A DNA stretch of 64,000 nt. Source: Brachyspira intermedia PWS/A. GTDB taxonomy: Bacteria > Spirochaetota > Brachyspiria > Brachyspirales > Brachyspiraceae. How positions within the stretch are numbered: the stretch's first letter is position 1; each line of letters starts with the position of its first letter. The notes beneath the pieces were generated by a model. It was not told where the DNA came from. It saw only the letters and a program-made list of their open reading frames with translations, and ran no database searches. Positions 12,710 to 47,258 of this stretch are shown here, piece after piece. Location: positions 2,542,001-2,606,000 of the forward strand of contig NC_017243.1 in the NCBI RefSeq assembly GCF_000223215.1. Direction: 5' to 3'. The position numbers and the translations under genes were made by a program.

Positions 12710-12738
12710 TATATACTGAAAATTTTTAAGTTTGTCAA
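12710..12738 (-). promoter_or_regulatory. Outward promoter at repeat end, facing purL
   Basis: On the minus strand TTGACA (12738-12733), a 17-base spacer (AACTTAAAAATTTTCAG) and TATATA (12715-12710). It is the left end of an intergenic repeat and is the best promoter upstream of purL, which begins 273 bases further on. Confidence 0.5.
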
Positions 12739-13081
12739 TTTTTTATTGTTCTTTTTCCCGCCGCTCGCCAACCAAAGGCACGCAGAGCGAAGGCGGACTT
12801 CGTCGGCACGGGGCTGTCCCTGCTTCTCGCCGAAGGCTCTCCATTCGGTCACAAAAGAAGTGGTTTTTGCGTAAGGACACAGCATAGTTGGCAAAACCCC
12901 AGATATCAAAACAAAAATATAAATTTATTATTGATAAAATATAGTTGTTTAGATATAAATTATTAATTTTATATAATAAGTAATCAGCCGCACATATAGT
13001 TGACATTCGATAAGAATAAGCGATACTGTGCGGGGCGGTGCTGTGGCTCGCAGTGACAAAATATAGTTGTTTAGGTATATA
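12710..13081. repeat. Intergenic repeat element 1 (with a partial second unit)
   Basis: A unit at 12710-12959 has a GC-rich interior (CCCGCCGCTCGCC, GGCACGCAGAGCGAAGGCGG) framed by outward promoter-like ends. The left end is TTGACA-N17-TATATA on minus. The right end is TTGATA-N17-TATAAA on plus (12931-12959). A second right-type end follows at 13053-13081 (GTGACA-N17-TATATA) behind another GC-rich patch (CGGGGCGGTGCTGTGGCTCG). The base composition is unlike the surrounding genes. Similar modules occur at about 15.4, 20.6, 24.7, 25.0, 41.8, 44.6 and 46.8 kb. The open frames across it are short and unsupported. Nothing else was found in the 12.4-13.2 kb gap. Confidence 0.75.
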
Positions 13082-13238
13082 TTTATTAAAAAATACTACA
13101 AACAACAATATTTTGATATTTTTTATTTATAGTTCATTATTTTTTATATTATTACATATATAAGCAGATAATAATTGTTTTTAATTTTTACATTAATGTT
13201 ATAATATAAATATAAATTTTATCATGCGAGGTTATAAA

Positions 13239-13622
13239 ATGAAAATAGCTCATATTGCTGTTTGGGTTAAAGATTTAGAGAATATTAAAAATTTTTATAT
13301 CAAATATTTTAATTGTATATGCAATGATAAATATGTTAATGAGAAAAAAGGGTTTGAATCATATTTTCTAAAATTTGAAGATGACTGCAGATTAGAGATT
13401 ATGACTAGAAAAGATATAAAAGAAAGAAATACAAATGATGATATGTACGGTTTTGCTCATATTTCAATATCAGTAGGAAGCAAAGAGAAAGTTGACAGCC
13501 TCACAGAAGAATTAGAAAAAGACGGATTTAAAATCGCATCATATCCTAGAACTACAGGCGATGGATATTATGAAAGCGTTGTGCTTGACAGCGAAAATAA
13601 TAGAATAGAAATAACTATATAA
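13239..13622 (+). CDS. VOC (glyoxalase/bleomycin-resistance fold) family protein
   Basis: A 127-residue protein covering one vicinal-oxygen-chelate unit pair. It opens with MKIAHIAVWVKDLENIKNFY and continues through LKFEDDCRLEIMT, HISISVGS and YYESVVLDSENNRIEIT. His and Glu at the expected metal positions (His in AHIAVWV, Glu in RLEIM, His in FAHISIS, Glu in NRIEI) suggest a metal-binding lyase or isomerase of glyoxalase I type; the substrate is unproven. I chose the ATG at 13239 because GAGG lies at good distance upstream; the in-frame ATG at 13224 would contain that site. Only 30 bp separate it from the amidohydrolase lipoprotein gene, so the two are probably co-transcribed. Confidence 0.85.
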   Translation: MKIAHIAVWVKDLENIKNFYIKYFNCICNDKYVNEKKGFESYFLKFEDDCRLEIMTRKDIKERNTNDDMYGFAHISISVGSKEKVDSLTEELEKDGFKIASYPRTTGDGYYESVVLDSENNRIEITI

Positions 13623-13651
13623 AGGCATATATAAAATAAAAGGATATCAAA

Positions 13652-15346
13652 ATGAAAAAATTATATTTTGTATTATTAATGATTTTGTCTGTATTATCAA
13701 TTTCCTGCTATGATAAAATTACTCATAAAATAAAAGTTTATCATAATGGAAATATACTTACTATGCAAGGCGATGAACCAGTTTATGCAAAGGCTATAGA
13801 GATAAGAGATAACACAATAATGAAAGTTGTTTATACAGAAGAAGATGAAAAAAGCATTGTAAATAATGTATATGCAGAAGTAGTTGATTTGCAAGGTAAA
13901 ACATTAATGCCCGGATTTATAGATTCTCATAGCCATTTAGTGAGATTTGCTCAGGCTCTTACAACAGTAGATTTAACAGGCTCTACTAATTTACTTGAAA
14001 TGGCTCAAAGAATCACTAACTATATAGAAATAAATAAATTAAAACCAGATGCTTGGGTTGTAGGATTTGGTTATGATAATAATTTGCTTCCTGATAAAAA
14101 AAATCCTAACAGAGATGATTTGGATAAAATCTCTACTACTCACCCAATATTTATAACTCATGCTTCAGGACATGTAGGAGCAATGAATTCAAAAGCATTA
14201 GAAGAGTTTGGAGTTGATGAAAATACACCGGATATAGAAGGCGGAGTAATAGAGAGATATCCTGACAGCAGAAAGCCTACAGGATATATGGAAGAAACTG
14301 CATTTTTACATTATGCAAACAGTATCAATTTTGAATTAACTGATGAAGACTTGATGAGATTTGTGAATCAAGCTGAAGATGTTTATTTAGGATACGGCAT
14401 TACAACTGCACAAGATGCTTTACTATCAACTGCCGAATTTCCTCTTGTAAATAATATGATAACTAATAATAGATTTAGAATAGATATTATAGGTTTTATA
14501 GATTTAAAAAATTCTGACTCCATCGTAGAAACTAATAAAGAAATGGTAGGAAAATACAAAAATAGATTTAAAATAGGAGGCTATAAAATATTTTTGGACG
14601 GCTCTCCTCAGGCAAAAACTGCATGGTTAGAACAGCCTTATGTAAGCGGACCAGCAAGATACAGAGGATACGGAATATATGATGATGCGGCAGTAGAAAA
14701 ATACGTTGAAAAAGCATTAGATGATGAAATGCAGCTTCAGGCGCATTGTAACGGAGATGCAGCAGCAGATCAGTATATAAATGCATTCAGCAATGTTATG
14801 CAAAGAAGAAATACCACTAACAATTACAGAGCAGTTTTAGTTCATAGCCAAATAATAAGAGATGAACAATATACATCAATGTCAAATCTAAATATTATAC
14901 CTTCAATATTTGTAGCACATGTTTATCATTGGGGCGATGTACATATAGCTAATTTAGGAATGGAAAGAGCTTCACAAATAAGTGCATCTAGAACAGCATT
15001 AAATAATAATTTAGCTTTTACTTATCATCAAGACACACCTGTAATAAAACCAGATATGCTTGAAACTATTTGGTGTGCCGTTAATAGAATAACAAAAAAC
15101 GGTGTATTATTAGGAGATAATCAAAAAGTTACTCCTTATGAGGCTTTAAAGGCCATAACTATTAATGCCGCTTATCAAAATAAAGAAGAAGATTTAAAAG
15201 GAACTATTGAAGAAGGAAAATTAGCTGATTTAGTAATATTAAGCGATAATCCATTAACCTGTGAGCCTATGAAGATAAAGGATATAGAAGTAATTGAAAC
15301 TATTAAAGAAGGTAAAACATTATATACGAAAAATACTGCTTTATAA
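13652..15346 (+). CDS. Amidohydrolase-family lipoprotein (YtcJ/AepA-like)
   Basis: A 564-residue metal-dependent hydrolase. The N-terminus is a lipoprotein signal: MKKLYFVLLMILSVLSISC with Cys19 as lipidation site, so it is predicted to sit on the envelope. The amidohydrolase-3 domain starts with KVYHNGNILTM, then LMPGFIDSHSHLVRF (first metal His pair). It continues through ITHASGHVGAMNSKAL, GYKIFLDGSPQAKTAWL, QAHCNGDAA and LVHSQII (metal His), FTYHQDTPV, and ends with GKLADLVILSDNP. Related enzymes hydrolyse N-formyl or other amides; the substrate is unknown. A lipoprotein signal on this family is unusual but is seen in some bacteria. RBS AAAGGA is upstream. Confidence 0.87.
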   Translation: MKKLYFVLLMILSVLSISCYDKITHKIKVYHNGNILTMQGDEPVYAKAIEIRDNTIMKVVYTEEDEKSIVNNVYAEVVDLQGKTLMPGFIDSHSHLVRFAQALTTVDLTGSTNLLEMAQRITNYIEINKLKPDAWVVGFGYDNNLLPDKKNPNRDDLDKISTTHPIFITHASGHVGAMNSKALEEFGVDENTPDIEGGVIERYPDSRKPTGYMEETAFLHYANSINFELTDEDLMRFVNQAEDVYLGYGITTAQDALLSTAEFPLVNNMITNNRFRIDIIGFIDLKNSDSIVETNKEMVGKYKNRFKIGGYKIFLDGSPQAKTAWLEQPYVSGPARYRGYGIYDDAAVEKYVEKALDDEMQLQAHCNGDAAADQYINAFSNVMQRRNTTNNYRAVLVHSQIIRDEQYTSMSNLNIIPSIFVAHVYHWGDVHIANLGMERASQISASRTALNNNLAFTYHQDTPVIKPDMLETIWCAVNRITKNGVLLGDNQKVTPYEALKAITINAAYQNKEEDLKGTIEEGKLADLVILSDNPLTCEPMKIKDIEVIETIKEGKTLYTKNTAL

Positions 15347-15370
15347 ATGATTAAACAAAATTAAAATAAT

Positions 15371-15420
15371 AAATTACTGCATTTTTATTTTTTATAAATA
15401 ATAGATGCAGTAATTTTTAT
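15371..15420 (+). terminator. Terminator after amidohydrolase gene
   Basis: The 12-bp arms AAATTACTGCAT (15371-15382) and ATGCAGTAATTT (15405-15416) are followed by a T-rich tail. A near copy of this hairpin lies on the other side of repeat element 2. Confidence 0.75.
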
Positions 15421-15834
15421 ATACACTGAAAATTTTTAAGTTTGTTAATTTTTTATTCAACTTTTTCCCGCCGCACGCCTACCGTAGGCACGCTTCGCGA
15501 AAGTGCAAGTATAAAATGTGTACTAAATCATACTAAAATTGTTTTGTATGTAATATAGATTATTAATTTAAGCTAAAATATAGCCTTTCGCCGAAGGCGG
15601 GCTGTGCCTGCTTCTCGCCTGCCGAAGGCACGCACAGCGAGGCGGGCTTCGCCTGTGGCAATACCACCCTAAAGGACTTCCTATGGTCGCAGGCACTTCC
15701 TTCGGTCGCAAAAGAAGTGGGGGTGTTACGAAGTACGCAGAGCTGCACGCTGTGTGCTTCGCAGTGGGCTAGTCCCCACAAATAATAAAAATAAAAAATT
15801 AATTTTTGACAAAATATAATTGTTTAGGTATATA
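15420..15834. repeat. Intergenic repeat element 2
   Basis: A unit of about 415 bp. The left end on the minus strand is TTAACA-N17-TGTATA (15448-15420). The right end on the plus strand is TTGACA-N17-TATATA (15806-15834). The interior is GC-rich (CGCCGAAGGCGGGCTGTGCC; CACAGCGAGGCGGGCTTCGCC). It carries the palindrome GGGCTAGTCCCC near the right end followed by ACAAATAATAAAAATA, as in elements 3 and 5. It fills most of the 15347-15972 gap. No supported gene lies inside. Confidence 0.75.
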
Positions 15835-15866
15835 TAAAAGTTTTTTAATTAATTAAACAAAATAAC

Positions 15867-15917
15867 AAATTACTGCATTAATTATTTTCATAATAGTAAA
15901 TGCAGTAATTTTTTTAT
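15867..15917 (-). terminator. Terminator, second copy of the 15371 hairpin
   Basis: The arms AAATTACTGCAT (15867-15878) and ATGCAGTAATTT (15900-15911) are followed by TTTTT. It lies downstream of the minus-strand MATE remnant and mirrors the hairpin at 15371-15416, including part of the preceding AAACAAAA stretch. Confidence 0.65.
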
Positions 15918-15972
15918 ATTCAAATATTATGTTTTTCTAATTTTAAAATTTTTCTTATTTTAGTAAAATAAA

Positions 15973-16907
15973 TTATATAATCACTGTGGATATTAAAATG
16001 GCAAGCCCAAATCTTAAAGTTATATTTAGAAGCGTAATCTCATAAGCACCTTTCAAATATAAAATAAAATACGGTATATTGAAAAAAGTATTAACTATAA
16101 AAGACTGAAGAAGCATATATTTAATCTGTCCTATAGCGTACAATAAATTTGATATGATATTATAATATGCATAGAATATATAAAAAGGAAATAATATCAT
16201 AATCAATGACATAACAGATTCAAGATTCTGGGCATTCATTATATAATTCATAAAATACTTATATGTAGGTATTAATGCTATTATTACAGAAATTAAATTT
16301 GATATTATATTATTATAAGCTATTCCATTAACTCCGAAATTTAATGATATAGGATACTGAGAAACAAAAAGTATATCAAGAATAATAGTTAAAAACATTT
16401 TTATAGTAGTTATTACAAAAATAGATTTATAATTTTCCAAAGCAGTATGAACTATTATTACCAAATGAAATAATACAACAGCAATATTAGCTAAAGATTC
16501 TAATCTTATATATGTTGTAGTTTGAGCATAAAGTTCTGTCTGCTGCTTCATAACAGTAACTAAATAGCCAGCAAATACATTTATAATAAAAGCCATTATT
16601 ATATATATAAAAGTGATTATTAATATAGAACTTCTTACTTTATTTATAAATATATATTTTTCTTCAAATGAATATTTATCTTTTATCTTACCGAAAAAGA
16701 AAAAAGCGGGGCTATTATAGCTTCTTCAAATACCTCATATATGATTCCAAGCCACATTTGCTGAGATGCAATATTTATACCGCTTGCACTGGGATAGCTG
16801 TCAAGCAAATATATTCTAAATGTTGACTAAATAGAAGATATCAAAGCCTGTATCATAAGAACGATAAAAAGTCTGAAATTAATTTGCTTCAATAAATTTA
16901 AATACAT
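15973..16907 (-). pseudogene. Broken MATE-type multidrug/solute exporter
   Basis: A degraded polytopic membrane transporter of about 311 codons on the minus strand. From the ATG at 16907 the frame reads MYLNLLKQINFRLF and meets an in-frame TAG at 16827-16829 after 26 codons. It continues as DSYPSASGINIASQQMW and then shifts frame at a run of six T (16700-16705), where one more T would restore ...LFFFFGKIKDKYS. The remaining 207 codons (from 16596) are a series of hydrophobic helices with MATE-like features. The family name is from overall pattern and is tentative. Typical MATE proteins have about 450 residues, so one end is also missing. With a nonsense codon as well as a frameshift this is very probably inactive. 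Confidence 0.65.
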
Positions 16908-17213
16908 AATTCTATCCCAAATTTATTTACTGTTTTTATAAAATATAATATACAAATATATTTTAAATATATAGCAAGCATAATAAATAAAAATTAGTAT
17001 TTATTATAAATGTAGCTATTATTATTTAATATTAAAAATAGTACATAAAATTTGATTTTTGAGATTTTTTTTACTATACTTGAGTTATCATGCATTACTT
17101 AGTTTTCTATGAATCAGCTTATTCTTTAAGCTTCTTTAGAAACAAATCAAATAATATAATAAATAATCTATTATATCATCAAAATAATTTCTGTTACCAA
17201 AGGAGGAATGTTT
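16908..17213. other. AT-rich intergenic region between MATE remnant and EF-G-like gene
   Basis: About 305 bases of very AT-rich sequence between divergent genes. I see no gene or repeat module. The promoter of the EF-G-like gene must lie here, but no TTGACA/TATAAT pair stands out. The only clear signal is the AAAGGAGG ribosome-binding site at 17199-17206. Confidence 0.4.
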
Positions 17214-19304
17214 ATGGGAAAAATATATAACCCAGAAAGTATTCGTAATGTTGCACTTCTAGGACATGTAGGAAGCGGTAAAACTAGTTTGAATGAAGCC
17301 TTACTCTATAGAGCCAAATCTATAGATAAAAAAGGTGAAATCGAAAGAGGAACTACAGTCAGTGACTATACAGACGAAGAAATTAAGCAAAAAATGTCCA
17401 TCAGAACTTCTTTAAGTTTTATAGAATGGAATGATCATAAAATTAATTTGCTGGACATTCCTGGGTCTGGTGATTTTAGCGGTGAAATTAACCCTGCTTT
17501 AAGAGTAGCTGAATCTTGTATTGTTGTTATAGATGCAGAATTCGGTATACAAATAGAAACTGAAAAACATTGGCAAATGGCTAATAATTTCAGAAGACCT
17601 AGAATAGTATTTATCAATAAAATAGATAAAGAAATGGTTGATCATAAAGCTTTATTAGAGAAAATCGAACATAACTTTAAAGAACCGCCTGTAGTTCCTA
17701 TACAAATACCTATGGGTAATGGTAAAGATTTTAAAGGTATAATAGATGTTATTTATCATAAAGCGTTTTTCAGAGATGAACATGGAAAAATTGTAGAGGC
17801 AGAAATACCTGAAGAATATTATGAAGAGTACAGAGCAACTCGCGACAGATTAAAAGAATTAGTATGCGAAGTTGATGATAGTCTTATGGAAAGGTATTTA
17901 GACGGCGGAAAGTTTACAGATGAAGAATATATTGAAGCTTTAACAAAATCTATACTTCAATATAAAGTAGTACCTATACTTTTTGGTACATCAATAAGAG
18001 ATATAGGTATGGGAGCTTTACTTGATACTATTATCAGATATATGCCTTCCCCTTCTTATGTACCTGTTACAGATGGTACTGATCTTTTAACTAATGAACC
18101 TGCAACTAGAACTATATTAGGTGATAATAATCCTTTTGCAGCATTTGTATTTAAAACTACTATAGACCAATATGCTGGAAGAATATCATTCTTTAAAGTT
18201 CGTTCAGGAAGCATAAAAAGCGGAGATGAAATATACAATTCAAGAACAGGAAAGAAAGAAAAAGTTTCTCATATATATATGGCTAGAGGAAAAAAACAAA
18301 TAGAAAGTGATACTATTACATCAGGAGATATAGGAGTATTGGCAAAACTTTCAGACTGCAGAACAGGTGATACTATAAGTGTTCCATCTGCTCCATTCCA
18401 ATTCCTACCTCTTAAAGTACCTCAGCCTATATACTTTACAGCTATTAAAATATTGAAAAATGATATAAAAGCTCTTGAAGTTCTTGATACTATATCTCAG
18501 GAAGATTTAACTTTCAATATAGAGTATGACAGCGAAACTAAAGAAACTATTATCAAAGCTATGGGTGCTTTACAGGTAAAATTAGCATTAGAAAGAGTAG
18601 TATCTCTTACTAAAGCAGAAATAGAACAAAGCGTTCCTAGGGTAGCTTATAGAGAAACTATAAGAAAACAGGCTCAGGCTCAATATAGACATAAAAAACA
18701 ATCCGGAGGAAGCGGACAATTTGGAGAAGTTCATTTAGAAGTTTCACCTCTGCCACGTGACGGCGGTTTTGAATTTATAAACGATATATTTGGAGGAGCT
18801 ATACCTAAACAGTATATACCGGGAGTAGAAAAAGGTATACAGGATGCATTAGCACAGGGACCTTTGGGTAAATATCCTATGGTTGATATTAAAGTAAGAC
18901 TATTTGACGGTAAATACCATGATGTAGACTCTAACGAATTGTCATTTAGAATAGCAGGTTCTATGGCAGCAAAAGAAGCATTCAAAAATGCAAGCCCTGT
19001 ATTATTAGAGCCTGTGATGAAAGTTACAGTTTATGTACCTGAAGAGTTTACTGGTTCTATAATGAATGAACTTACAGGTAAAAGAGGCAAAATTTTAGGT
19101 ATGGAGGCAGCATCTAATACAATACAAATGATTAAAGCTGAAGTGCCGCTATCTGAAATGCTTACTTATTCTATAGAGATGAAAGCATCTACTTCAGGAA
19201 GAGGTACTTTTGAAATGGAGCATTCTCACTATCAAGAGCTTACAGGTCCTTTGGCCGATAAGGTTATAGAGGAAAGAAAAGCATTGCTTGGCAGCGGAGA
19301 ATAA
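17214..19304 (+). CDS. Elongation factor G-like GTPase (second EF-G type)
   Basis: A 696-residue translational GTPase of the EF-G family. G1 is GHVGSGKTSL. The switch I segment is atypical (ERGTTVSDYTDEEIKQKMSI). G3 is DIPGSGDF, where EF-G has DTPGHVDF, and G4 is NKID. Domain II, the domain IV SGGSGQFGEVHLEV-type stretch and a C-terminal domain V are all present. The DIPGSGDF variant and the DYTDEE switch mark the EF-G-like subgroup rather than canonical FusA, so a role in translocation, ribosome recycling or stress is uncertain. I chose the ATG at 17214: the AGGAGG at 17201-17206 is at correct distance from it, while the in-frame ATG at 17208 is only one base from the SD. Confidence 0.9.
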   Translation: MGKIYNPESIRNVALLGHVGSGKTSLNEALLYRAKSIDKKGEIERGTTVSDYTDEEIKQKMSIRTSLSFIEWNDHKINLLDIPGSGDFSGEINPALRVAESCIVVIDAEFGIQIETEKHWQMANNFRRPRIVFINKIDKEMVDHKALLEKIEHNFKEPPVVPIQIPMGNGKDFKGIIDVIYHKAFFRDEHGKIVEAEIPEEYYEEYRATRDRLKELVCEVDDSLMERYLDGGKFTDEEYIEALTKSILQYKVVPILFGTSIRDIGMGALLDTIIRYMPSPSYVPVTDGTDLLTNEPATRTILGDNNPFAAFVFKTTIDQYAGRISFFKVRSGSIKSGDEIYNSRTGKKEKVSHIYMARGKKQIESDTITSGDIGVLAKLSDCRTGDTISVPSAPFQFLPLKVPQPIYFTAIKILKNDIKALEVLDTISQEDLTFNIEYDSETKETIIKAMGALQVKLALERVVSLTKAEIEQSVPRVAYRETIRKQAQAQYRHKKQSGGSGQFGEVHLEVSPLPRDGGFEFINDIFGGAIPKQYIPGVEKGIQDALAQGPLGKYPMVDIKVRLFDGKYHDVDSNELSFRIAGSMAAKEAFKNASPVLLEPVMKVTVYVPEEFTGSIMNELTGKRGKILGMEAASNTIQMIKAEVPLSEMLTYSIEMKASTSGRGTFEMEHSHYQELTGPLADKVIEERKALLGSGE

Positions 19305-19332
19305 AATTAGGGTTTAGTATATAAAAATAAAG

Positions 19333-19361
19333 TTGATATTTTTTATATACTATCATATAAT
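19333..19361 (+). promoter_or_regulatory. Promoter of the EIIA-zinc ribbon gene
   Basis: TTGATA at 19333-19338, a 17-base spacer and a perfect TATAAT at 19356-19361, 30 bases upstream of the ATG at 19392. Confidence 0.75.
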
Positions 19362-19391
19362 ATTAGAATATGTATAAAACTAGGAGATTGT

Positions 19392-20210: not shown

Positions 20211-20218
20211 TAACATTA

Positions 20219-20629
20219 ATGATAAGTAATTTATTAAAAATATGGACAGCTAAAAGAAATATTTTAATAATACTTCTTTTAGCTTTCCTTTATATTTCAT
20301 GTTCACCTAATAAACCTAGCTCAAGCATTTCTGAGTTTTATAATTACCCTAACCCATTTAGTCCGTCTAAAGAGAATACTACTTATAAAGTTTCTATTAA
20401 TAGCGGAGAAATTATAAGTGCTAAAGTAGAAATATACTCTCAAAACGGTGATTTAATGGACTCAAAAGATTTAACTATTGATGCTTCCAAAAAAACAGCT
20501 ACTTGTATATGGTCTGGACTTGATAAAAATGGAAAGTATCTTCCTTCTGCTGTTTATGATGCTAAAGTAACAGTAAAAGATAATCAAGATTCTACATTTA
20601 CAGCTGAATTCAAAACTTCTATAAGATAA
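20219..20629 (+). CDS. Small lipoprotein with FlgD-like Ig domain
   Basis: A 136-residue predicted lipoprotein. The hydrophobic signal NILIILLLAFLYISCSPNK supplies a lipobox with Cys near residue 28. The mature part opens with FYNYPNPFSPSKENTTYKVS and contains WSGLDKNGKYLPSAVYDAKV. Together these are the hallmarks of a FlgD-type immunoglobulin-like fold, often found at the C-termini of secreted proteins. It begins 8 bases after the EIIA-zinc ribbon stop, so it is in the same operon although no strong SD is visible. An envelope location is predicted. The function is unknown. Confidence 0.78.
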   Translation: MISNLLKIWTAKRNILIILLLAFLYISCSPNKPSSSISEFYNYPNPFSPSKENTTYKVSINSGEIISAKVEIYSQNGDLMDSKDLTIDASKKTATCIWSGLDKNGKYLPSAVYDAKVTVKDNQDSTFTAEFKTSIR

Positions 20630-20636
20630 AAACTAA

Positions 20637-20970
20637 TATATACTTAAACAAATATACTTTGTCAATTCCTATATTTTATAAATATATTATCAACTTTTTT
20701 GCCGCTCAAAAAAGTTGCAAAAAACGCATATACTACAGCTTAATATTTTAAGAATACGTATTAAATGTAATATAACACCATGATTTTATCTAAAAAATGC
20801 AGTCTTTCGCATGCAGTAGTCAGGCTTCGCAATCTGAGGTTTCGGTAAAAGAACTTGGAATGTTACAAAGTAAACAGAACAGCACGACTGTGTGCTTCGC
20901 AGGGCTAGTCCCAACAAATAATAAAAATAATAAAATAATTTTTGACAAAATATAGTTGTTTGGGTATATA
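20637..20970. repeat. Intergenic repeat element 3
   Basis: A unit of about 334 bp. The left end on the minus strand is TTGACA-N17-TATATA (20665-20637); the right end on the plus strand is TTGACA-N17-TATATA (20942-20970). The interior holds the shared modules ATCAACTTTTTTGCCGC/CAAAAAAGTTG (about 20690), a TTAAATGTAATATAAC stretch, AAAATGCAGTCTTTCG (about 20800) and GGGCTAGTCCC (about 20905). It occupies the 20630-21068 gap. No gene is supported inside it. Confidence 0.75.
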
Positions 20971-20994
20971 TATATAAACTTTTTATTCATGTAA

Positions 20995-21035
20995 TAAAAA
21001 ATCTCTAACAGCTAAAACTGATAGAGATTTTTTTA
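20995..21035. terminator. Terminator between element 3 and the unknown gene
   Basis: The arms AAAAATCTCT and AGAGATTTTT enclose AACAGCTAAAACTGAT, with T runs on both strands. It can end the minus-strand gene 21069-22193 and also stop transcription leaving repeat element 3 on the plus strand. Confidence 0.75.
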
Positions 21036-21068
21036 TTTATACATTCATAAGAAATCATATTATATTTT

Positions 21069-22193: not shown

Positions 22194-22229
22194 TGATAAT
22201 ATCTCCTAACATTTTTTATATATATTATA

Positions 22230-24694: not shown

Positions 24695-24723
24695 ATTATA
24701 CCTAAACAAATATACTTTGTCAA
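24695..24723 (-). promoter_or_regulatory. Consensus promoter of pheA-aroK, formed by a repeat end
   Basis: On the minus strand TTGACA (24723-24718), 17 bases (AAGTATATTTGTTTAGG) and a perfect TATAAT (24700-24695). The pheA ATG is 34 bases downstream. The same 29-bp sequence, with small changes, forms the ends of the intergenic repeats. Confidence 0.75.
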
Positions 24724-24928
24724 AAAATAGTTTTTATATTTTTATTATTTTCGGGGACTAGCCCCAGAACCCCAGTTCTTTTACCGAGTAGGTACCTTTC
24801 GGTATTGATATAAGGCACAGCCCGCCTCGCTGTGCGTGCCGACGAAGTCCACCTATGGTGTCAGCAGGTGAGAACCAAAAAAACTGCATTTATGGTCTAA
24901 ATTTAGGTTATATCCTATATTTAATAAG
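24695..24928. repeat. Intergenic repeat element 4a
   Basis: Begins with the outward promoter end facing pheA. It then carries the palindrome GGGGACTAGCCCC (about 24752), ACCCCAGTTCTTTTACC, a GC-rich core (GGCACAGCCCGCCTCGCTGTGCG) and AACTGCATTTATGGTCTAAATTTAGG. These are the modules of elements 2, 3 and 5 in inverse order. It runs directly into element 4b. Elements 4a and 4b with the stretch to 25620 fill the 1 kb gap between pheA and the lipoprotein gene. Confidence 0.7.
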
Positions 24929-25241
24929 TATATACCAAAACAACTATATTTTGTCAAAAATAAAACTATAGTTTCTTTTTAATATATGGGGCTTTGCCCC
25001 ATACCCCAGTTCTTTTATTGGTATAAAAGAACCAAAACAACTGCATTTTTAACCTTAATTTAGGCTATATCATACATTTAATACATATATTTTTAATATA
25101 AAGTTCTAACAATTGCGTTTTTCGCGTAGCGTATCCGAAGGATAAAAACTTTGGCGAAGCCCGCAGAGCGTGTGCGGCAAAAAAGTTGATAATTTTACAT
25201 AAAGTGCATCGATTGACAAACTTAAAAATTTTCAGTATCTA
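24929..25241. repeat. Intergenic repeat element 4b
   Basis: The left end on the minus strand is TTGACA-N17-TATATA (24957-24929); the right end on the plus strand is TTGACA-N17-TATCTA (25213-25241). Inside are GGGGCTTTGCCCC, ACCCCAGTTCTTTTA, AACTGCATTTTTAACC, the TTAATACATATATTTTTAAT module and GCGGCAAAAAAGTTGATAA. These are the same modules as in element 7, inverted. Confidence 0.7.
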
Positions 25242-25620: not shown

Positions 25621-25621
25621 A

Positions 25622-36400: not shown

Positions 36401-36415
36401 TTTGTAACTTAGAAA

Positions 36416-38964: not shown

Positions 38965-38984
38965 AAATTATAGAGGAGCTAAAA

Positions 38985-40736
38985 ATGAAATATAAACCTC
39001 AGACAAAAGATGAATTAAAAAAATTAGTAAAAGATGAAAATATATATTTAGGTGATATTGATACAAGTTTAATTACCAACATGAAATCTTTATTTGCAAA
39101 TAGCAAGAGAGAAAATTTTGACGGCATAGAAAATTGGGATACTTCTAATGTTACAGATATGTCTGATATGTTTGCTGGGGCTTTAAATTTTAATTCAAAT
39201 ATAAATAATTGGAATGTTTCTAAAGTTACTAATATGTCAGGTATGTTTTCAAGTGCTAAAAAATTTAATCAGCCTTTAAATGACTGGGACGTTTCTAATG
39301 TAAAAGATATGGAGTTTATGTTTTCTGAAGCTGAAAGTTTTAATATGCCTCTTGATAAATGGAATACTTCTAAAGTATTTACTATGAGCTGTATGTTCTG
39401 TAAAGCTATAAATTTCAATCAGCCTTTAAATAATTGGGACACTTCTAATATTGAAAATATGCAGAGTATGTTTGCAAAGGCCTATAATTTTAATCAGCCT
39501 CTTAATAATTGGAATGTAAGTAAAGTAGAAGATATGACTGCTATGTTTGAGGGAGCTAAAAGTTTTAATCAGGATATCAATAATTGGAATGTTTCTAATG
39601 TAAGAAGAATGGCTCATATGTTTAACGGTGCTGAAAGTTTTAATTATTCTATAGAAAATTGGATCATTAATGAAGGCTCTTCTATTTGGGAGTTTTTTTC
39701 GGGTGCTTCTTCTTTTAAAGACATAAAATCTATATTAAATATTTATTTTATCTCTAAAAAAGTAAATGATAGGAAAAAACTTTTAAATATGCTTGAAAAC
39801 TGCGATATAAAAGAAGTGTATAAAGAAGTTATTAAATATAATAAACTTAAAGATTTTATAAAGAAACTTGAAAATACTTATTATGATGAATTAAAAGAAC
39901 TAATTGAAAATAAAGATAGTATTATATCAGAATATAAAAAATCAAAATCTAACAAATTAGAATTAAAAGATAATGAAAAGTATAAACCTAAAGACAAAGT
40001 GGAATTATTAAAATTAATAAAAGAAAAAGTCAAATTTAATAAAATAGATACTAGCTTAATAACTGATATGTCAGGATTATTTCAGAACTCAAAACTTAAA
40101 AAATTTGACGGCATAGAAACTTGGGATACTTCAAATGTAGAAGATATGCATAACATGTTTAGAGGAGCTTTGCATTTTAATCATAATATTAATAATTGGA
40201 ATGTATACAAAGTTGTTAATATGGAACATATGTTTTCTGGCTGTGAACTTTTTAATCAGCCATTAAATAATTGGGACGTTTCTAATGTAAAGTATATGGC
40301 TTTTATGTTTAATGAGTGTAAAAGTTTTGACAGTGATTTAAGTAATTGGAATGTTTCTAATGTTGATAGTATGGAATATATGTTTGAAAATGCATATTCA
40401 TTTAATCAGGATATTTCCAAATGGAATATAAGCAAAGTAAAAAAATTATATTCTATGTTTGAGGAAGCTAAAAGTTTTAATCAGCCTTTGAATGACTGGG
40501 ATATGAGTAATATTGAATCTATACACGGAATGTTTAAAGGGGCTTCAAGTTTCAATCAGCCTTTAGACAAATGGAATACGTCTAATATTAAAGATATATC
40601 ATTTGCCTTTGCCTATTGTATTAATTTTAATCAGGATTTAGAATCTTGGAAGTTGTCAGAAGATGTTAATATGAAATATGCTTTTATTAATTCTCCTATA
40701 GAAAATAATCCTCCTTCTTGGTATAAAGAAAATTAA
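38985..40736 (+). CDS. BspA-like DUF285 repeat protein without signal peptide
   Basis: A 583-residue protein built from BspA-type repeats of about 24-25 residues, with the core FNQPLNNWDVSNVKDMEFMF. It has two arrays (about residues 20-240 and 350-575), each preceded by the same cap: YKPQTKDELKKLVKDENIYL and YKPKDKVELLKLIKEKVKFN, both followed by (D)IDTSLIT(N/D)M. This shows internal duplication of the whole module, with a charged helical linker (about 245-330) between. There is no signal peptide or lipobox, so unlike surface BspA proteins it appears cytoplasmic. A good SD (GAGGAG) lies before the ATG, 20 bp after recF. The repeat-rich DNA favours recombination with the second copy at 42 kb. 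Confidence 0.87.
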   Translation: MKYKPQTKDELKKLVKDENIYLGDIDTSLITNMKSLFANSKRENFDGIENWDTSNVTDMSDMFAGALNFNSNINNWNVSKVTNMSGMFSSAKKFNQPLNDWDVSNVKDMEFMFSEAESFNMPLDKWNTSKVFTMSCMFCKAINFNQPLNNWDTSNIENMQSMFAKAYNFNQPLNNWNVSKVEDMTAMFEGAKSFNQDINNWNVSNVRRMAHMFNGAESFNYSIENWIINEGSSIWEFFSGASSFKDIKSILNIYFISKKVNDRKKLLNMLENCDIKEVYKEVIKYNKLKDFIKKLENTYYDELKELIENKDSIISEYKKSKSNKLELKDNEKYKPKDKVELLKLIKEKVKFNKIDTSLITDMSGLFQNSKLKKFDGIETWDTSNVEDMHNMFRGALHFNHNINNWNVYKVVNMEHMFSGCELFNQPLNNWDVSNVKYMAFMFNECKSFDSDLSNWNVSNVDSMEYMFENAYSFNQDISKWNISKVKKLYSMFEEAKSFNQPLNDWDMSNIESIHGMFKGASSFNQPLDKWNTSNIKDISFAFAYCINFNQDLESWKLSEDVNMKYAFINSPIENNPPSWYKEN

Positions 40737-40846
40737 ACAAAATATTTATTTGAATAAGTATTGTTTTATAATATGATAGAATTAATTATTTTGATGTTAT
40801 ACTTAAACAAGTTCATAAAAACTCATGAATGGAGGGAGAATACTAT

Positions 40847-41766
40847 ATGATAATTGATAAATTACCACCAAATTATATTAATAATATAGATGATTTATTT
40901 GAACATTTGTATGGGGTTAGACCTAAAAAAGATGGAGTATCTGCAGAGTTATTATATTATATAATCAAAAAAAATTCTAACATAGATCCTAATAAAGAAT
41001 ATGAATGGAATAAAGAAATAACTTTTTATGAATATAATAATGTTCAAATTGATGTATTAGAAAAGATAAAAGATCATTATTCACAAATAATTGATATCAA
41101 AGACTGGAAAAAAAATGTAGATAGACCAGAAGTTCAAAAACTAGAAAGTACAACTCTACATTTTGAAAAAATTATAATAGAATATCATCTTGTTTAATTA
41201 GTACTAAAGGCTTTTCAAATGGTGCTAAAGAGTGGGCAAAGAAATCTTTAAGTAAATCAAAAATTAATCTATATATAATGAGATTAAGTGAATATAAAGA
41301 TATAGAAAACAAATTGTTGGAAATTGTTATTAATATGGATATAGTTTTAAATATAAAAATGTTTCCAATTTTTTCAAATGATGACAAAGAATATAATTAT
41401 AAAACTTTTAATAAAAAAACAATTAATATGACTATTGAAAAGAAAGACATATTATTAGTTAATAAAAATAAAAGATTTGATGAATTAGAAAAAAATATAT
41501 TATCAGATTGTAAATGGGAAAATTTAAATGATAATATTCAAAAAGCAACTTTATATGAACCAATTTATATATATTTTGATAATAAAATCATTAAAGCATC
41601 TGGAATAGAATTCACTAGATATCTTCATAAACAAAAAATTGTCGTTACTAAAGGAAAGTGCCTTATATCATTATGTGATGAAAATGGTAATGTATTAGAG
41701 GTATTTTTTGAAGAAGAATTGGTAAAATATAAAGATGAAGTTTTAAATATGATAAATAATATATAA
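40847..41766 (+). pseudogene. Mrr-like restriction-endonuclease-fold protein, frame broken
   Basis: Two frames (40847-41197 and the frame of 41278-41766) form one gene of about 306 codons. The first ends EKIIIEYHLV-stop at 41195-41197. One extra T in GTTTAATT (41193-41195) continues it as LVLISTKGFSNGAKEWAKK into the second frame with no further stop. The combined middle reads DIKDWKKNVDRPEVQKLEST, then LVLISTKGF. This is the core of Mrr-type nuclease domains, where the D/E-x-K of the active site is followed by a strand and 'STKGF..GA'. The C-terminal 150 residues are unassigned. I chose ATG 40847 because GGAGGGAGA lies just upstream of it. If intact it would cleave DNA; its genomic setting among DUF285 genes is accessory. 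Confidence 0.6.
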
Positions 41767-41819
41767 ATATTTTTATTTATTAATAGTATAAAATATTATC
41801 AAATTTTATTTGAAATGTA

Positions 41820-41962
41820 AAATAAAGCCTAAATTTTAGATAAAATGCAGTCTTTTTGGTTCTTTGTGTCAACAAAAGAACTGGGGGTGTGGGGGCTAGT
41901 CCCCACAAATAACTTAAATTTAAAATACTATTTTTGACAAACTTAATAATTTTTAGTATATA
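41820..41962. repeat. Intergenic repeat element 5 (right part)
   Basis: The shared modules appear in order: AAGCCTAAATTTTAGATAAA, ATGCAGTCTTTTTGGTTCTTT, AAAAGAACTGGGGG, GGGGGCTAGTCCCC and the right end TTGACA-N17-TATATA (41934-41962). No clear left end was found, so this copy seems truncated. Confidence 0.65.
41934..41962 (+). promoter_or_regulatory. Promoter of the DUF285-DUF4132 gene, formed by a repeat end
   Basis: TTGACA (41934-41939), a 17-base spacer (AACTTAATAATTTTTAG) and TATATA (41957-41962). The SD AGGAG and the ATG at 41982 follow directly. The sequence is the type B end of the intergenic repeat. Confidence 0.7.
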
Positions 41963-41981
41963 TAAAATAGGAGAAATTATT

Positions 41982-44603
41982 ATGCATAAATACAAACCAC
42001 AAACAAGAGAAGAATTACAGAAATTAGTACAAGATGAAAATATTTACTTAGGTGATATTGATACAAGTTTAATAACAGACATGAGCGGACTGTTCTCATT
42101 TGAAAGAAGAAAAGATTTTTCAGGTATAGGAAATTGGAATGTTAATAACGTTACCAGTATGAGAGGAATGTTTTATAATTGTTATAGTTTTAATGAAGAT
42201 ATAGGAAAATGGAATGTTTCTAATGTTAATAATATGGGAGATTTATTTTATAACTGCATAAATTTTAATCAAAATATTTCTGAGTGGAATGTATCAAATG
42301 TTATCAATATGCGGGGCATGTTTAATGGTTGTAAAAATTTTAATCAGCCTTTGAGTAAATGGAAAACTTCTAATTTAGAAAATACTGAATATATGTTTAG
42401 AAACTGTACTAATTTTAATCAGAGTGTAAATCATTTTAATATGTCAAAAGTAAAAAATGCAATTTATATGTTTGAGGGATGTAAGGAATTTAATCAGCCT
42501 TTAGATAAGTGGGATACTTCCAATATTGAATATATGAATGGAATATTTAAGGGCTGTACTAATTTTAATCAGAATATAAATAATTGGAATACATCTAGTT
42601 TATCAATAGTAATTGAAATGTTTAATGGCTGTGAAAATTTTAATCAGCCTTTGAATAAATGGAACATATCAAAGGTAAGACATTTAACGGCTATGTTTAA
42701 AGATTGTCATCATTTCAATCAGCCTTTAAATGATTGGGATATATCAAAGGTTGAAAATATTAGCAACATGTTTGAAGGATGTAAAAGTTTTAATCAGGAT
42801 TTAGATAAATGGGATACTTCAAATGTAAAAAGTATGAATTCTATGTTTTGGAAAGCTAAAAGTTTTAACAAGCCTTTGGATAAATGGAATGTAAGCAATG
42901 TCAATACTATGGTTGCTATGTTTTATAATAGCGGTTTTAAAGAATATGATTCTCTTAATACTTGGGAGCTTAATGACAAAGTTATAATCGATAATATTTT
43001 TGATGATAGTGCAGTTAGTAGTTTAAGTTTAAAATGGATTCTATATTTATATACTTTTTCTAATATTAATGTTTTAAGTGTTTTAGAAAAAAATATAAAA
43101 GAAATTTATAAAATAGCACATACAAGCAATAATAAAAAAATTAAAGCTGTTAAAACAAGATTAGAAAATCTTTATTATAATGATTTAAAAGAATTTCTTG
43201 ATTATGAATTATTTTGTAATATTGAAAAGTATGAAGAAAGTATTAATAAAAAATTAAATAAAAAAGATGAGGCAAAAGTTTCTTATATAGAAAATTGTAA
43301 TGTATTAGTAAAAGATAAATCTAGAGAAGTTGATACTAAAGTGATAAAATATATATACTTAAAATATTTAGAATTAAAAAGAGATATTTATCATTTGATT
43401 GAAATAGATTCTATTATTAATTTACTTGATAGAGAAAGTTTTTTGACTTTTGCTAAAAATATTTATAAAGAAACATACAAGGAAACCACAGCAATTATTT
43501 ATACTTTATATGGAGATGATGAGGCTTTAAGAGAAATATACAAGAAAGAAAAAGATTCTAAATTCTTTTTAATGATTTTGTCTTCAATAAAAATTACAGA
43601 AATTACTGATTATGCTATAAAACTATTGTATGATATTTATTCAAAAGCTAAAAAACATGAAATACGAATTTCAGCATTACATTTATTAAAAGAAATATCA
43701 AAAGAAAAACATTTATCGCTTGAAGATTTGGAATTAAAATTTACTTCAAATTTCGGATTTGATTTAAAAGGCGAAAAAATTATCAATGATGATTATAAAT
43801 TGATTTTAAATAGTGATTATTCTGTGAATGTATTTGATATAAAAAATAATAAACTTTTAAAAGCTGTACCCAAAGATTTTACAGAAGCTATAAAAGAAGA
43901 AATTAAATACATAAAAAAAGAAATTCCTGATATTATAAAGAAACTTTCTTTAAAATTGTATAAATCATTAATGTATGAAAAGAAATATAATTATAAACTT
44001 TTCAAAGAAATATTTATTGATAATCCTTTAATGAATAAATTTTCTTCTTCGCTTATTTGGAATTTATATGATAAAGAGAACAATTTTATAACTACATTTA
44101 GGTACAACAATGACGGAAGCTATTCAAATTGTGATGATGAAGAAATTAAAATTAATGATGACAGCTTTATAGGTTTAGCAAGCCCTATAGAAATGAATGA
44201 AGAAACTATTACAAAATGGAAAAAACAATTAGAAGATTATGAATTATTTCAGCCAATAAATCAATTAAGCATAATAAAATTAGATAAAAATAATTTGGAA
44301 AATGAAATAAACAAATTACAAAACATTGAAATAGCTTATGGTACTTTTAAGGCTTTCGGTGATAGGTATTCAATGATTCCTAGTTATATGGACTATGGCA
44401 CAGTTAAAGAATATAATCTAAAAATAAATAATGGAGACAATTTTGATATAATCATAGATTCTGAAGATAATATTGATTATAAAGATAAAGTAAAAATAAA
44501 TATTAAATTCTATAATGAGAATAATGAAAAAGTGTCAGAAAGATTTATTTATACTTTATTAATTCTTATTATATGGGATTTCAGATTAACAGATTTATTT
44601 TGA
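41982..44603 (+). CDS. DUF285 repeat protein fused to a DUF4132-like domain
   Basis: An 873-residue protein. Residues 1-35 are the cap HKYKPQTREELQKLVQDEN, nearly the same as in the protein at 39 kb. BspA-type repeats (FNQPLNKWNISKVRHLTAMF) follow to about residue 330. The C-terminal half is unlike BspA: HEAT-like helices and then NPLMNKFSSSLIWNLYD, TFRYNNDGSYSN, LASPIEMNEETITKWKKQLE and DYELFQPINQLS. These are the conserved blocks of DUF4132 (MolR/YehI-like) proteins; the family call is from memory. No signal peptide. I chose the ATG at 41982 with AGGAG upstream; upstream in-frame starts lie in the promoter. The function is unknown. Confidence 0.82.
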   Translation: MHKYKPQTREELQKLVQDENIYLGDIDTSLITDMSGLFSFERRKDFSGIGNWNVNNVTSMRGMFYNCYSFNEDIGKWNVSNVNNMGDLFYNCINFNQNISEWNVSNVINMRGMFNGCKNFNQPLSKWKTSNLENTEYMFRNCTNFNQSVNHFNMSKVKNAIYMFEGCKEFNQPLDKWDTSNIEYMNGIFKGCTNFNQNINNWNTSSLSIVIEMFNGCENFNQPLNKWNISKVRHLTAMFKDCHHFNQPLNDWDISKVENISNMFEGCKSFNQDLDKWDTSNVKSMNSMFWKAKSFNKPLDKWNVSNVNTMVAMFYNSGFKEYDSLNTWELNDKVIIDNIFDDSAVSSLSLKWILYLYTFSNINVLSVLEKNIKEIYKIAHTSNNKKIKAVKTRLENLYYNDLKEFLDYELFCNIEKYEESINKKLNKKDEAKVSYIENCNVLVKDKSREVDTKVIKYIYLKYLELKRDIYHLIEIDSIINLLDRESFLTFAKNIYKETYKETTAIIYTLYGDDEALREIYKKEKDSKFFLMILSSIKITEITDYAIKLLYDIYSKAKKHEIRISALHLLKEISKEKHLSLEDLELKFTSNFGFDLKGEKIINDDYKLILNSDYSVNVFDIKNNKLLKAVPKDFTEAIKEEIKYIKKEIPDIIKKLSLKLYKSLMYEKKYNYKLFKEIFIDNPLMNKFSSSLIWNLYDKENNFITTFRYNNDGSYSNCDDEEIKINDDSFIGLASPIEMNEETITKWKKQLEDYELFQPINQLSIIKLDKNNLENEINKLQNIEIAYGTFKAFGDRYSMIPSYMDYGTVKEYNLKINNGDNFDIIIDSEDNIDYKDKVKINIKFYNENNEKVSERFIYTLLILIIWDFRLTDLF

Positions 44604-44617
44604 TTATATAAAATTAT

Positions 44618-44998
44618 AATATAGCTAAACAACTATATTTTGTCAAGCGCGAGCTGCGGCACCTTCCCGCACGGCACTGTTTTATCTTATCAAACGCCAA
44701 CTATACGCGACCGAAGGAAGTACTGCGACTGAAAGGAGTACCTGACGAAGTCCACTGTAAGTGTAGGTATGGTATTGCCACAAAGTAGCTTATATCCTCT
44801 ATAAACTCGGATACGCTTCGCGAAGGGCTATATTTTAGCTTAAATTTAATATTTTATCTTACATGTAAGACGAAATTAGTATTATTTAGTACTAATTTTA
44901 TACTTGCACTTTTTGGTTCTTTGACGAAGTCCGCAGAGCGTATACGGTGGGAAAAAGAACAACAAAAAATTGACAAAGTTAAAAATTTTTAGTATATA
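44618..44998. repeat. Intergenic repeat element 6
   Basis: A unit of about 381 bp filling the gap to the ankyrin gene. The left end on the minus strand is TTGACA-N17-TATATT (44646-44618); the right end on the plus strand is TTGACA-N17-TATATA (44970-44998). The interior is GC-rich (GCGCGAGCTGCGGCACC; GACGAAGTCC; CGCTTCGCGAAGGGC), with GGTTCTTTGACGAAGTCCGC near the right end, also found in element 7. No gene is supported. Confidence 0.75.
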
Positions 44999-45005
44999 CA
45001 AATAA

Positions 45006-46007
45006 TTATCTTTTTAAATATTCATCAAAAAGTTTTATTATATCATCTCTTTTCTTTCTTGCCGCCAATCTGTATGCGGTATTTCCATAACTGTTCCTGT
45101 CAGTAGGACTTGCCCCTGCTTTCAAAAGTTCTTCTATTACATTTATAGGAGTACCAATAGTTCTGTATACTTTTTTATTTAAATTACTATCCTGAATAGG
45201 CGCTTCATATTCATACATTACCGCTCTTATTAAAACAGTATTTCCATTTCTGTCGCGAGCATTAACATCAGCACCAAGCTCTATAACTTTTTTTATCAAT
45301 TCAAAATCTAATTGCCTTTTTTCTATCAAATACATAAGAAGTGTCTTTCCGTCATTTGTACTCATAGAATTTATATCAGCACCTAAATTGATATATTCGT
45401 TTAATATTGCAGTAGAATAAGTACTGTCAAAATTTGTTGATATAGTTTCAGCATTATATATTATAGCTTCATTTAAATTAGTTGCTCCTGCATTTACTAA
45501 TTCTTTTATTATATCAATATTAGTAGAAGCTGTTAATGGTGATTTTCTTTCAGCACCTTTATAATTTCTATATACTTCTATATATGCCCTAGTATTAACA
45601 TTGGCACCCTTACCTATTAAATATTTTACAACCTCTAAATGATTACCCTCGCATGCAGATACCAATGCAGGATTAAGATCCTTAGCACCTAAATCAATAA
45701 GTTTTTCTACTATATCTAATTGTCCGCCTATGGCAGCATAAGACAATGCAATATTATAATTACTAGCACCGGACTTCATTATATCTTCTGCTATATTCCA
45801 ATACCCTTCAGCACATGCCACATAAAAAGCAAAATCAAAATCTTTAGCACCGAAATCTAATAATTCCTGAACTATTTCTTCATTGCCAAGCTGAGCCGCA
45901 TACATTAAAGGACTCATACCATAATTGATATTGTATAAATCTAAGTTAATGCCATCTCTCAATAATATTTTTACTTTATCTATATCATTATTTTTTATAG
46001 ATTCCAT
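45006..46007 (-). CDS. Ankyrin repeat protein, exported form blocked by a frame slip at codon 3
   Basis: The open frame from ATG 46007 gives 333 residues of eight or nine ankyrin repeats (SPLMYAAQLGNEEIVQELLD; KTLLMYLIEKRQLDFELI; NTVLIRAVMYEYE). No SD lies before that ATG. Upstream in the same frame is a complete signal peptide, IIALLFIIFNTSLVFAQND. Its start codon (ATG 46078) is followed by six A and then reads ATG AAA AAA TAA. With seven A it would read MKKIIALLFIIFNTSLVFA and run into the ankyrin frame. The native protein is therefore probably a periplasmic ankyrin protein of about 356 residues. As the sequence stands, only an unexported fragment could be made. Its role is unknown. Confidence 0.75.
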   Translation of the reverse strand: MESIKNNDIDKVKILLRDGINLDLYNINYGMSPLMYAAQLGNEEIVQELLDFGAKDFDFAFYVACAEGYWNIAEDIMKSGASNYNIALSYAAIGGQLDIVEKLIDLGAKDLNPALVSACEGNHLEVVKYLIGKGANVNTRAYIEVYRNYKGAERKSPLTASTNIDIIKELVNAGATNLNEAIIYNAETISTNFDSTYSTAILNEYINLGADINSMSTNDGKTLLMYLIEKRQLDFELIKKVIELGADVNARDRNGNTVLIRAVMYEYEAPIQDSNLNKKVYRTIGTPINVIEELLKAGASPTDRNSYGNTAYRLAARKKRDDIIKLFDEYLKR

Positions 46008-46286
46008 TAACTCATCATTTTGAGCAAATACTAAAGAAGTATTAAATATTATAAATAATAATGCAATTATTTTTTCATTATAAAATCCAAGTTATAAAAT
46101 ACCGCTTCTATTATCGGAAATAATGAAACTATACTTATAAAATAAAAAATTTACTAAAATTATAATAAAAATTCTATAATTAGTAAACATAACAGCAATT
46201 ATGAATATAATATGTATTGATATTTATTTTTATAGGTTTATAATTCAAATATAGGGGTAGAATTAAATATTTAAGAGGTGTAATTT

Positions 46287-46718
46287 ATGGAAATAAGTAT
46301 TCGTAATAATGCTCCTTATATAAGAAACACTAATAATATAAGAAATAATAACAATAATATCAATAATATTGTTCAGGAAGCAAGCCAAAAAACTCCTATA
46401 AGCGAAGTGGGAGTATGTAAAACTTGTGCATCAAGAACATATCAAGACGGTTCTAATGATATAGGTGTATCTTTTAAAACTCCTACTAAAATAGATCCTT
46501 CAAGTGCTCCTTCTATGGTAGCATCACATGAACAGGAACATGTTGCCAATAATCAGAGATCAGCAGAAAAAAGCGGCGGAGAAGTAATTTTCCAAAATGT
46601 AACATTAACTACTAATATATGCCCTGAATGTAAAAGGGTTTATGTTTCAGGCGGTGTTACAAAAGCAGCAATAGCTAGCCCTTCAAGCAAAGGCAATAAT
46701 GTAGATACATACGCATAA
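46287..46718 (+). CDS. SprA-related putative zinc metalloprotease-like protein
   Basis: A 143-residue protein. An Asn-rich N-terminus (about 1-40) is followed by the conserved core CKTCASRTYQDGSNDIGVSF, KTPTKIDPSSAPSMVASHEQ, then EHV. This contains HEQEH, a HExxH zinc-protease motif at His81-His85. A second Cys pair (CPECKRVYVSGGVTK) completes a metal-binding layout. It matches the SprA-related family (recalled from the conserved 'YqDgSnD.gVSF.tP' block). The catalytic motif is intact, but proteolysis has not been shown for most members. The start has AAGAGGTG upstream. It stands alone between an ankyrin gene and repeat element 7. Confidence 0.83.
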   Translation: MEISIRNNAPYIRNTNNIRNNNNNINNIVQEASQKTPISEVGVCKTCASRTYQDGSNDIGVSFKTPTKIDPSSAPSMVASHEQEHVANNQRSAEKSGGEVIFQNVTLTTNICPECKRVYVSGGVTKAAIASPSSKGNNVDTYA

Positions 46719-46749
46719 AACTTTTTATAAGCTAAAAAATATATAATAG

Positions 46750-47018
46750 TATATACCAAAACAACTATATTTTGTCAATTTTGATATTTTTTCAGATGTA
46801 TTATCAACTTTTTTGCCGCACAAAAAAGTAGCTGCCACAGGCACGCTTCGCGAAAACGCAATTGCTAGAACTTTACATTAAAAATATATGTATTAAATAT
46901 ATTATATAACCTAGATTTAGAGTAAAAATGCAGTCTTTCACGAAGCGTATCTGAGTCTATCAAGGTATAAGGTTCTTTGACGAAGTCGCGGAAAAAAGAA
47001 CAACAAAAAAGTTGACAA
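46750..47018. repeat. Intergenic repeat element 7
   Basis: The left end on the minus strand is TTGACA-N17-TATATA (46778-46750). The right side ends in TTGACA (47013-47018), but its -10 is decayed (ACATAATCC). Modules inside: ATCAACTTTTTTGCCGC with CAAAAAAGTAG, CGCTTCGCGAAAACGCAATTG, TTAAATATATTATATAACC, AAAAATGCAGTCTTTC and GGTTCTTTGACGAAGTCGCG. With the AT-rich 47019-47258 stretch, in which I see nothing, it fills the gap before the GH2 gene. Confidence 0.72.
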
Positions 47019-47258
47019 ACTTCAAAAATACATAATCCTCAAAAAAAATTTACTATTTTAACCATACTATAACTATATAATTAAATTGCATATCACTTAT
47101 ATTTCATACGATTCTATTTTGATGTTTAACAACTTCATATAGTAATATTAGATCAAGTAATATAAAACAATAAATAATAAATTTTGTAAAAACTTTTATT
47201 GATTTTTATTTTTTAAATATAAAATTGCATATCAAAAAACATTGGAGTATATACCAAA

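Follow-up and report, generated by a model that had tools for sequence, protein, structure and literature searches.

The intergenic repeats of Brachyspira intermedia PWS/A whose ends resemble outward-facing promoters are, to judge from sequence comparison, very probably MITEs of the IS630 (Tc1/mariner) family. Their two end types, A and B, would be the inverted repeats of a parent insertion sequence (IS), the elements would be mobilized in trans, and any promoter activity would be incidental. This family of IS630-type MITEs appears to be new, and its promoter-like ends are best interpreted as the ends on which a transposase acts. The accessible text of the open-access literature on Brachyspira, including the genome papers, holds no description of these repeats, subscription papers falling largely outside that scope. 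The genome comprises 3,308,048 bases in two contigs, and the available passages of the B. intermedia PWS/A genome paper give 27.2% G+C and a 3.2-kb plasmid. The window, by which we mean the whole stretch of 64,000 nucleotides that was analysed (positions 2,542,001 to 2,606,000 of contig NC_017243.1), has a G+C content of 26.9%.

A preliminary description of the window spoke of thirteen repeat ends and gave fourteen coordinates; ends of the kind described lie at all fourteen, and the spacer between the two hexamers is 17 bases in every one. TTGACA, said to be present in most, is exact in 11 of the 14, the other three reading TTGATA, GTGACA, and TTAACA. These ends had been called consensus promoters, which holds for the -35 and not for the -10, since the second hexamer is TATATA in nine ends and TATAAT in one. 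With up to one mismatch allowed, TTGACA-N17-TATATA occurs 13 times in the window against 2.3 expected (none of 100 shuffles reaches 13), and 11 of these matches are listed ends. The corresponding figures for TTGACA-N17-TATAAT are six matches against 2.7 expected, with two of 100 shuffles reaching six and only two matches being listed ends, so that the label is stronger than the -10 permits. A genome-wide search with the two end types found 126 A ends and 130 B ends (up to three mismatches), and the reversed control sequences gave no match genome-wide at the same threshold. Of 26 Brachyspira genomes, 22 contain A ends (range over the 26, 0 to 282 per genome); at up to three mismatches, none was found in the other four or in any of 35 genomes outside the genus. 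Beyond the terminal TATA, the flanks drop to background except for a preference for TA followed by C or T.

The end matches listed (100 per type) fall into 127 clusters, 121 of them outside the window. The interiors and the anatomy of the elements were studied in the first 100 clusters and the window; end conservation, flanking duplications, gene context, and tandem junctions were studied in all 121 clusters and the window. In the larger set, TA follows 95 of 135 A ends and 104 of 131 B ends. The smaller set contains at least 84 distinct elements with two outward ends, 133–538 bp in length, and the end pairs among the matches listed are 69 A+B, 10 A..A, and 5 B..B. The 84 resolved elements are small and have no transposase gene inside. 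Tandem elements that share one TA occur in 25 places (21 by a stricter pattern) in the 121 clusters and the window. The features of the window are as follows, and they include a degenerate right end of the seventh element that was absent from the earlier list.

12712..12957, minus strand: MITE 1, B end on the left and A end on the right, ends placed by position weight matrix; it seems to have been inserted into an older element or fused with one.
12958..13079, plus strand: remnant of the older element, with an A end at 13053-13079, holding the AATCAGCCGCAC...GTGCGG module.
15422..15832, minus strand: MITE 2 (B..A), between convergent genes; a terminator-like hairpin is duplicated (~75 bp) at its flanks.
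20639..20968, strand undefined: MITE 3 (A..A), between convergent genes.
24697..24930, strand undefined: MITE 4a, with an A end and no recognized right end of its own; it abuts MITE 4b.
24931..25239, plus strand: MITE 4b (A..B), ends placed by position weight matrix.
24782..24804, plus strand: double-hairpin unit of type P, TA-CCGAGTAGG-TA-CCTTTCGG-TA.
41772..41960, plus strand: MITE 5, left end not recognized (start approximate), B end at 41934-41960.
44620..44996, plus strand: MITE 6 (A..B), between convergent genes.
44923..44940, plus strand: double-hairpin unit of type Q, GA-CGAAG-TC-CG-CAGAG-CG, which is the GACGAAGTCCGC module of the preliminary description.
46752..47031, plus strand: MITE 7, A end at 46752-46778 and a degenerate, B-like right end near 47012-47031.

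The interior modules reported as common to several elements are real, as the comparison of elements demonstrates. One module, AGTAATCAGCCGCAC..GGAC..GATAAGA..GCAATAC.GTGCGG, whose arms are complementary, recurs beside one end in many elements and at 12958-13052 of the window. A search of the whole window against Rfam at the gathering thresholds gave no match. Direct duplications of ~75 bp flank three of 88 blocks (15422-15832 of the window, L189 281-827, and L057 800-1109), and locus L180 seems, by eye, to hold another block with a long flanking duplication. As a rule of insertion, such long duplications were rejected: they occur in these 3 of 88 blocks only (mispaired controls, 0 of 435 at the same score). 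TA insertion is no explanation for them.

When 26 genomes of the genus were searched with Pfam DDE_3, one broken gene was found, over the cut-off (4.8e-10), in the congener G024. The element that carries it is 1056 bp long and consists of a B end (one mismatch), the decayed transposase, and an A end (three mismatches). The stop-free N-terminal 79 residues of this transposase are 32–37% identical to 10 plasmid records, seven of which are annotated as IS630 family transposase; in Pfam, the same piece matches HTH models only, below their cut-offs. The parent was found in two of the 26 genomes by protein and in five by DNA. In a sister species (G013), which is ~95% identical to B. intermedia over the one 5.3-kb contig compared, all 18 DNA matches to the parent lie at contig ends. 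Fifteen of these stubs run into repeat ends, 11 into B ends (no mismatches) and four into A ends (0–1 mismatch), with differing flanks, and the other three stop short of an end. This pattern suggests a multicopy, recently active IS in a draft assembly. G011 and G002 each have one parent stub joined to an A or B end, and the ends of parent stubs also match the inverted repeats of the elements in G020. Of 17 resolved IS ends, four lie directly against a MITE end, with one TA common to both; three of the four are in G013 and one is in G002. Searches of the B. intermedia genome with DDE_3, the parent protein, and the parent DNA found none of them, and no intact parent gene was seen among the genomes of the genus, in which its bodies are either missing from draft assemblies or decayed. 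Viral contigs yielded neither the parent protein, which was also not found in phages, nor an exact A end. Transposases of the DDE_Tnp_1 type were rejected as partner: the genus has six matches in 4 of 26 genomes, and the six loci hold no A or B end at up to seven mismatches.

The orthologous intergenic regions were compared in 10 congeners for six of the seven areas, the fifth having no anchor. No call was obtained in 29 of the 60 genome-by-area cells, partly because at most 20 kb was compared for five of the 10 congeners. The repeats vary in presence and absence, and each of the six areas is without ends in at least two congeners: five in area 2, four in area 3, two in area 6, and three in area 7, together with G019, G016, G003, G023, and G024 in area 1, and G019 and G023 in area 4, where a B-like match at eight mismatches in G019 was taken as chance. 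In several end-free areas, the flanks are too different for a base-exact reading. At area 4, the empty site in G019 and G023 reads AAGATTATACTAAATAG, and the filled site in B. intermedia (G000) and G009 reads AAGATTA[TACC...AGTA]TCTACTAAATAG, the insertion spanning MITEs 4a and 4b together. Target-site duplication, a point raised in the preliminary description, is thus seen as a duplicated TA at one clean empty site; it is the only such site, and the right copy has changed to TC. Other sites differ in what they hold. The outer left site of area 1 has a B end in B. intermedia, whereas G005 has an A..A element there and G013 a different interior; between the outer sites of area 6 lie an A..B element in B. 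intermedia and G005 and two tandem elements in G004, and in G009 and G019 the gene ends adjoin. Presence and absence, together with the swapping of ends and interiors at fixed sites, indicate that the elements are mobile and that they also recombine in place. The proposal of a non-autonomous mobile element is therefore upheld by an IS630-type parent with the same ends, by the TA duplication at the empty site, and by the presence/absence pattern.

If the repeats are IS630-derived MITEs, B and A would be the two inverted repeats of the parent, B on the start side of the transposase gene and A on the opposite side. The transposase would be supplied in trans by a parent copy, of an IS that is multicopy in the sister species and was not found in this genome now; it would cut both ends and paste the element into a TA, preferably within TATATA, so that the TA is duplicated. 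As resident ends offer a TA, new copies would line up beside them head to tail, one TA serving both. Within these tandem arrays, recombination may then generate the A..A and B..B forms and the swapped ends at a fixed site. It could be argued that recombination or exchange of intergenic regions alone spread the repeats, with no transposition at all, since fixed sites plainly show recombined ends and interiors and this genome has no parent. The TA-bounded empty site, the tandem junctions with one common TA, and the multicopy parent with ends of 0–1 mismatch in a sister species make this account highly improbable. Under transposition from an IS630-type parent, the -35 would sit in the inverted repeat, and the -10 would be composed of the terminal TA of the element, the target TA, and the next two target bases. 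In other words, the ends would be promoter-like by construction; they may fire at some sites, and the spreading would be independent of promoter function.

Whether the copies have instead been selected because their ends drive neighbouring genes, as the idea of an element spreading promoters implies, can be weighed from the ends themselves and from their gene context. Correia elements and MITEAba12 are precedents, and the outward -35/-10 pairs are present as sequence: of 266 ends (121 clusters and the window), 173 retain an intact TTGACA and 189 are followed by TATATA, and against this nine make TATAAT. The G/C bases of the -35 are retained at 87–88%, slightly above those of the spacer (75–80%, pulled down by two or three positions with common variants), but A/T bases are retained at 94–98%, so that the loss of G/C looks like ordinary AT-ward decay. 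Judged by conservation, selection for promoters receives no clear support from the small excess at the -35. Gene context was read from open frames only, those overlapping an end being dropped. Among the 102 blocks that could be assigned (25 more were unassignable), 59 lie between tandem genes, 40 between convergent genes, which are favoured, and three between divergent genes; a first count on 100 clusters (94 blocks) gave 60, 32, and two, with the same trend. The avoidance of divergent regions has a binomial p of ~1e-7 against their share of base pairs, the background being this one window. Two thirds of the assigned ends (139 of 204) point antisense into gene ends, and 38 of the 204 are co-directional with the next gene and at most 150 bp from its open frame. 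The B end at 41934 is well placed: its TTGACA-17-TATATA stops 19 bases before the ATG (41982) of a DUF285 gene, with AGGAGA in between. The G004 orthologue of this gene has other DNA upstream. On this evidence, promoter activity is possible, most plausibly at 41934, and looks incidental; the spreading of promoters is not favoured as the function of the elements, and we consider selection for it unlikely. It should be mentioned that the region 38985-44603 of the window contains DUF285 (BspA-like) genes made of 75-base repeats, whose order and upstream DNA differ among B. intermedia, G004, and G005.

The preliminary description also offered a domain boundary, that is, a bidirectional element that starts transcription both ways for domain organization. 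The ends do face outward on both sides, but the positions are not conserved among congeners, four genomes of the same genus have no A end at up to three mismatches, and ends and interiors are swapped at fixed sites. This proposal finds no support here, and we regard it as scarcely credible.

The statement that no described element has this design was too strong, because MITEs with putative outward promoters are known. According to the available passages, the Correia elements (CREE/NEMIS) of Neisseria have 24-bp inverted repeats, TA termini, and putative divergent promoters; they are ~107 and ~155 bp long, the longer with an IHF site, and no interior turnover is described in those passages (PMC2229807). 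The Brachyspira elements work like them; they are likened to Correia elements by description and are not filed as members. MITEAba12 of Acinetobacter is similar in that outward promoters are predicted both ways, with transcripts from one, and different in being uniform and 111–114 bp long, as far as the accessible text goes (PMC6382973). The RUP element of Streptococcus pneumoniae is reported, in the passages available, as 107 bp long with 108 intergenic copies and a proposed mobilization by IS630-Spn1; like the Brachyspira elements, it has TA at its ends and inverted repeats in common with an IS630-family IS (PMC2229807). In contrast to RUP, the Brachyspira elements are 133–538 bp long and have modular interiors and two distinct end types, and their genome has no parent copy.

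The modular interiors contain small units of another kind. Pairwise comparison of the elements (first 100 clusters and the window) gave 113 distinct presence/absence segments of at least 10 bases, the commonest length being 19 (23 of the 113), and segments of 17–40 bases average 57% G+C in a 27% genome. Among the 49 segments of 17–23 bases, many of which are variants of one another, 19 contain a pair of adjacent small hairpins as cut (shuffle mean 0.2, maximum 2), and the number rises to 37 when 2-base flanks are included (shuffle mean 1.1, maximum 4, 200 shuffles). Of 118 CGAAG-type units from all loci compared, 101 have a paired first stem, 100 a paired second stem, and 86 both, and nine combinations of stems occur among them; paired 2-base flanks surround any CGAAG in 188 of 457 cases, compared with 38 of 564 and 44 of 417 for control words. 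Energy folding of three typed units gave no clear win over shuffles, and one unit prefers a single hairpin, so the double-hairpin structure rests on stem covariation. Folding of two interior pieces only gave z values of -2.55 and +1.71. For type P units, all 15 regex matches of a first set (both strands, ~8 places) show agreement between flanks and middle, and the stem rule holds in 18 of 25 cases of a second set, whose loci partly overlap the first; the seven that break it read TA-TG-CA (five), TA-GG-CA (one), and CA-TG-TG (one). Independent type P cases are few, because many copies share one homologous site inside MITEs. Across the genus, 21 of the 26 genomes contain the type P pattern (control, 0). 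Type Q stems do not follow the target, as different stems occur at the same MITE site. The interior units are thus GC-rich and ~20 bp long, and they nest and turn over within the MITEs.

Such units also occur outside MITEs. An ssb-like gene of B. intermedia (G000:C2:1761978-1762493, i.e., L174 560-1075, within G000:C2:1761419-1763437) is cut by five double-hairpin units, and no A or B end (up to seven mismatches) lies in the 2 kb around it. Its homologue in G004 has a Pfam SSB match. Six of eight congeneric homologues are uninterrupted, and the unit boundaries are precise. G016 has three near-equal copies of the gene, which is probably carried by a mobile element. The G003 gene matches B. intermedia exactly at two of the five units, has part of a unit at a third position, and carries one that is peculiar to it; where B. 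intermedia has its first unit, G003 and G016 both have one of type P. In B. intermedia, twenty bases take the place of one at each of two type Q units (TTATCA|A|ATGCC and AGCAGT|C|AATC), two relatives of type Q add 21 and 19 bases net, and the fifth unit is of type P. The type P units in this gene read NN-CCGAGTAGG-N'N'-CCT..CGG-NN, where NN is the dinucleotide of the empty homologue: CG in B. intermedia (the empty site is CG in G005 and CA in most others), CA in G016, and TA in G003. The type Q pattern has 50 matches in the B. intermedia genome; of eight type Q places far from listed ends, several are MITEs with missed ends or truncated MITEs, and one is the ssb-like gene. Two further type P units were observed in putative phage surroundings, one (L235 1501-1520) close to where a terminase large subunit frame starts and the other (reverse strand of L241, near 1501) close to the end of what seems, by eye, to be a phage protease frame.

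We tentatively suggest, giving the idea somewhat less than even weight, that these ~20-bp double-hairpin units are mobile in their own right, apart from the MITEs, and insert into MITE hairpins as well as accessory and phage genes. Type P would then have the form NN-loop1-N'N'-loop2-NN; NN would be the duplicated target dinucleotide and the middle pair its reverse complement, so that the target would furnish one half of every stem, perhaps through fold-back or template-switching synthesis. If true, such target-made stems would be unlike the target duplication made by a transposase. Small dispersed repeats of cyanobacteria are very small mobile units in a bacterium. The available passages on yeast mitochondria describe mobile GC-rich palindromic units of 18–42 bases, whose mode of movement is given as unsettled; mitochondrial GC clusters and double-hairpin elements share with the Brachyspira units the form of tiny GC-rich palindromes in AT-rich DNA, presence/absence, merging, and short flanking repeats (PMC4478555). 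The likeness is one of description; the Brachyspira units are bacterial and ~20 bp long, are nested in MITEs, and occur in genes as well. To a specialist, nested hairpin units are unexpected in a bacterium, and they deserve a separate study.

The reading of the repeats as MITEs accounts for a repeat that is frequent in the intergenic DNA of an animal gut spirochaete, and it provides markers of genome change, and because the ends are promoter-like, an insertion could rewire a neighbouring gene. The hairpin units are the larger question: many bacterial genomes, empty sites, and stems that match their targets would make the mechanism testable in culture.
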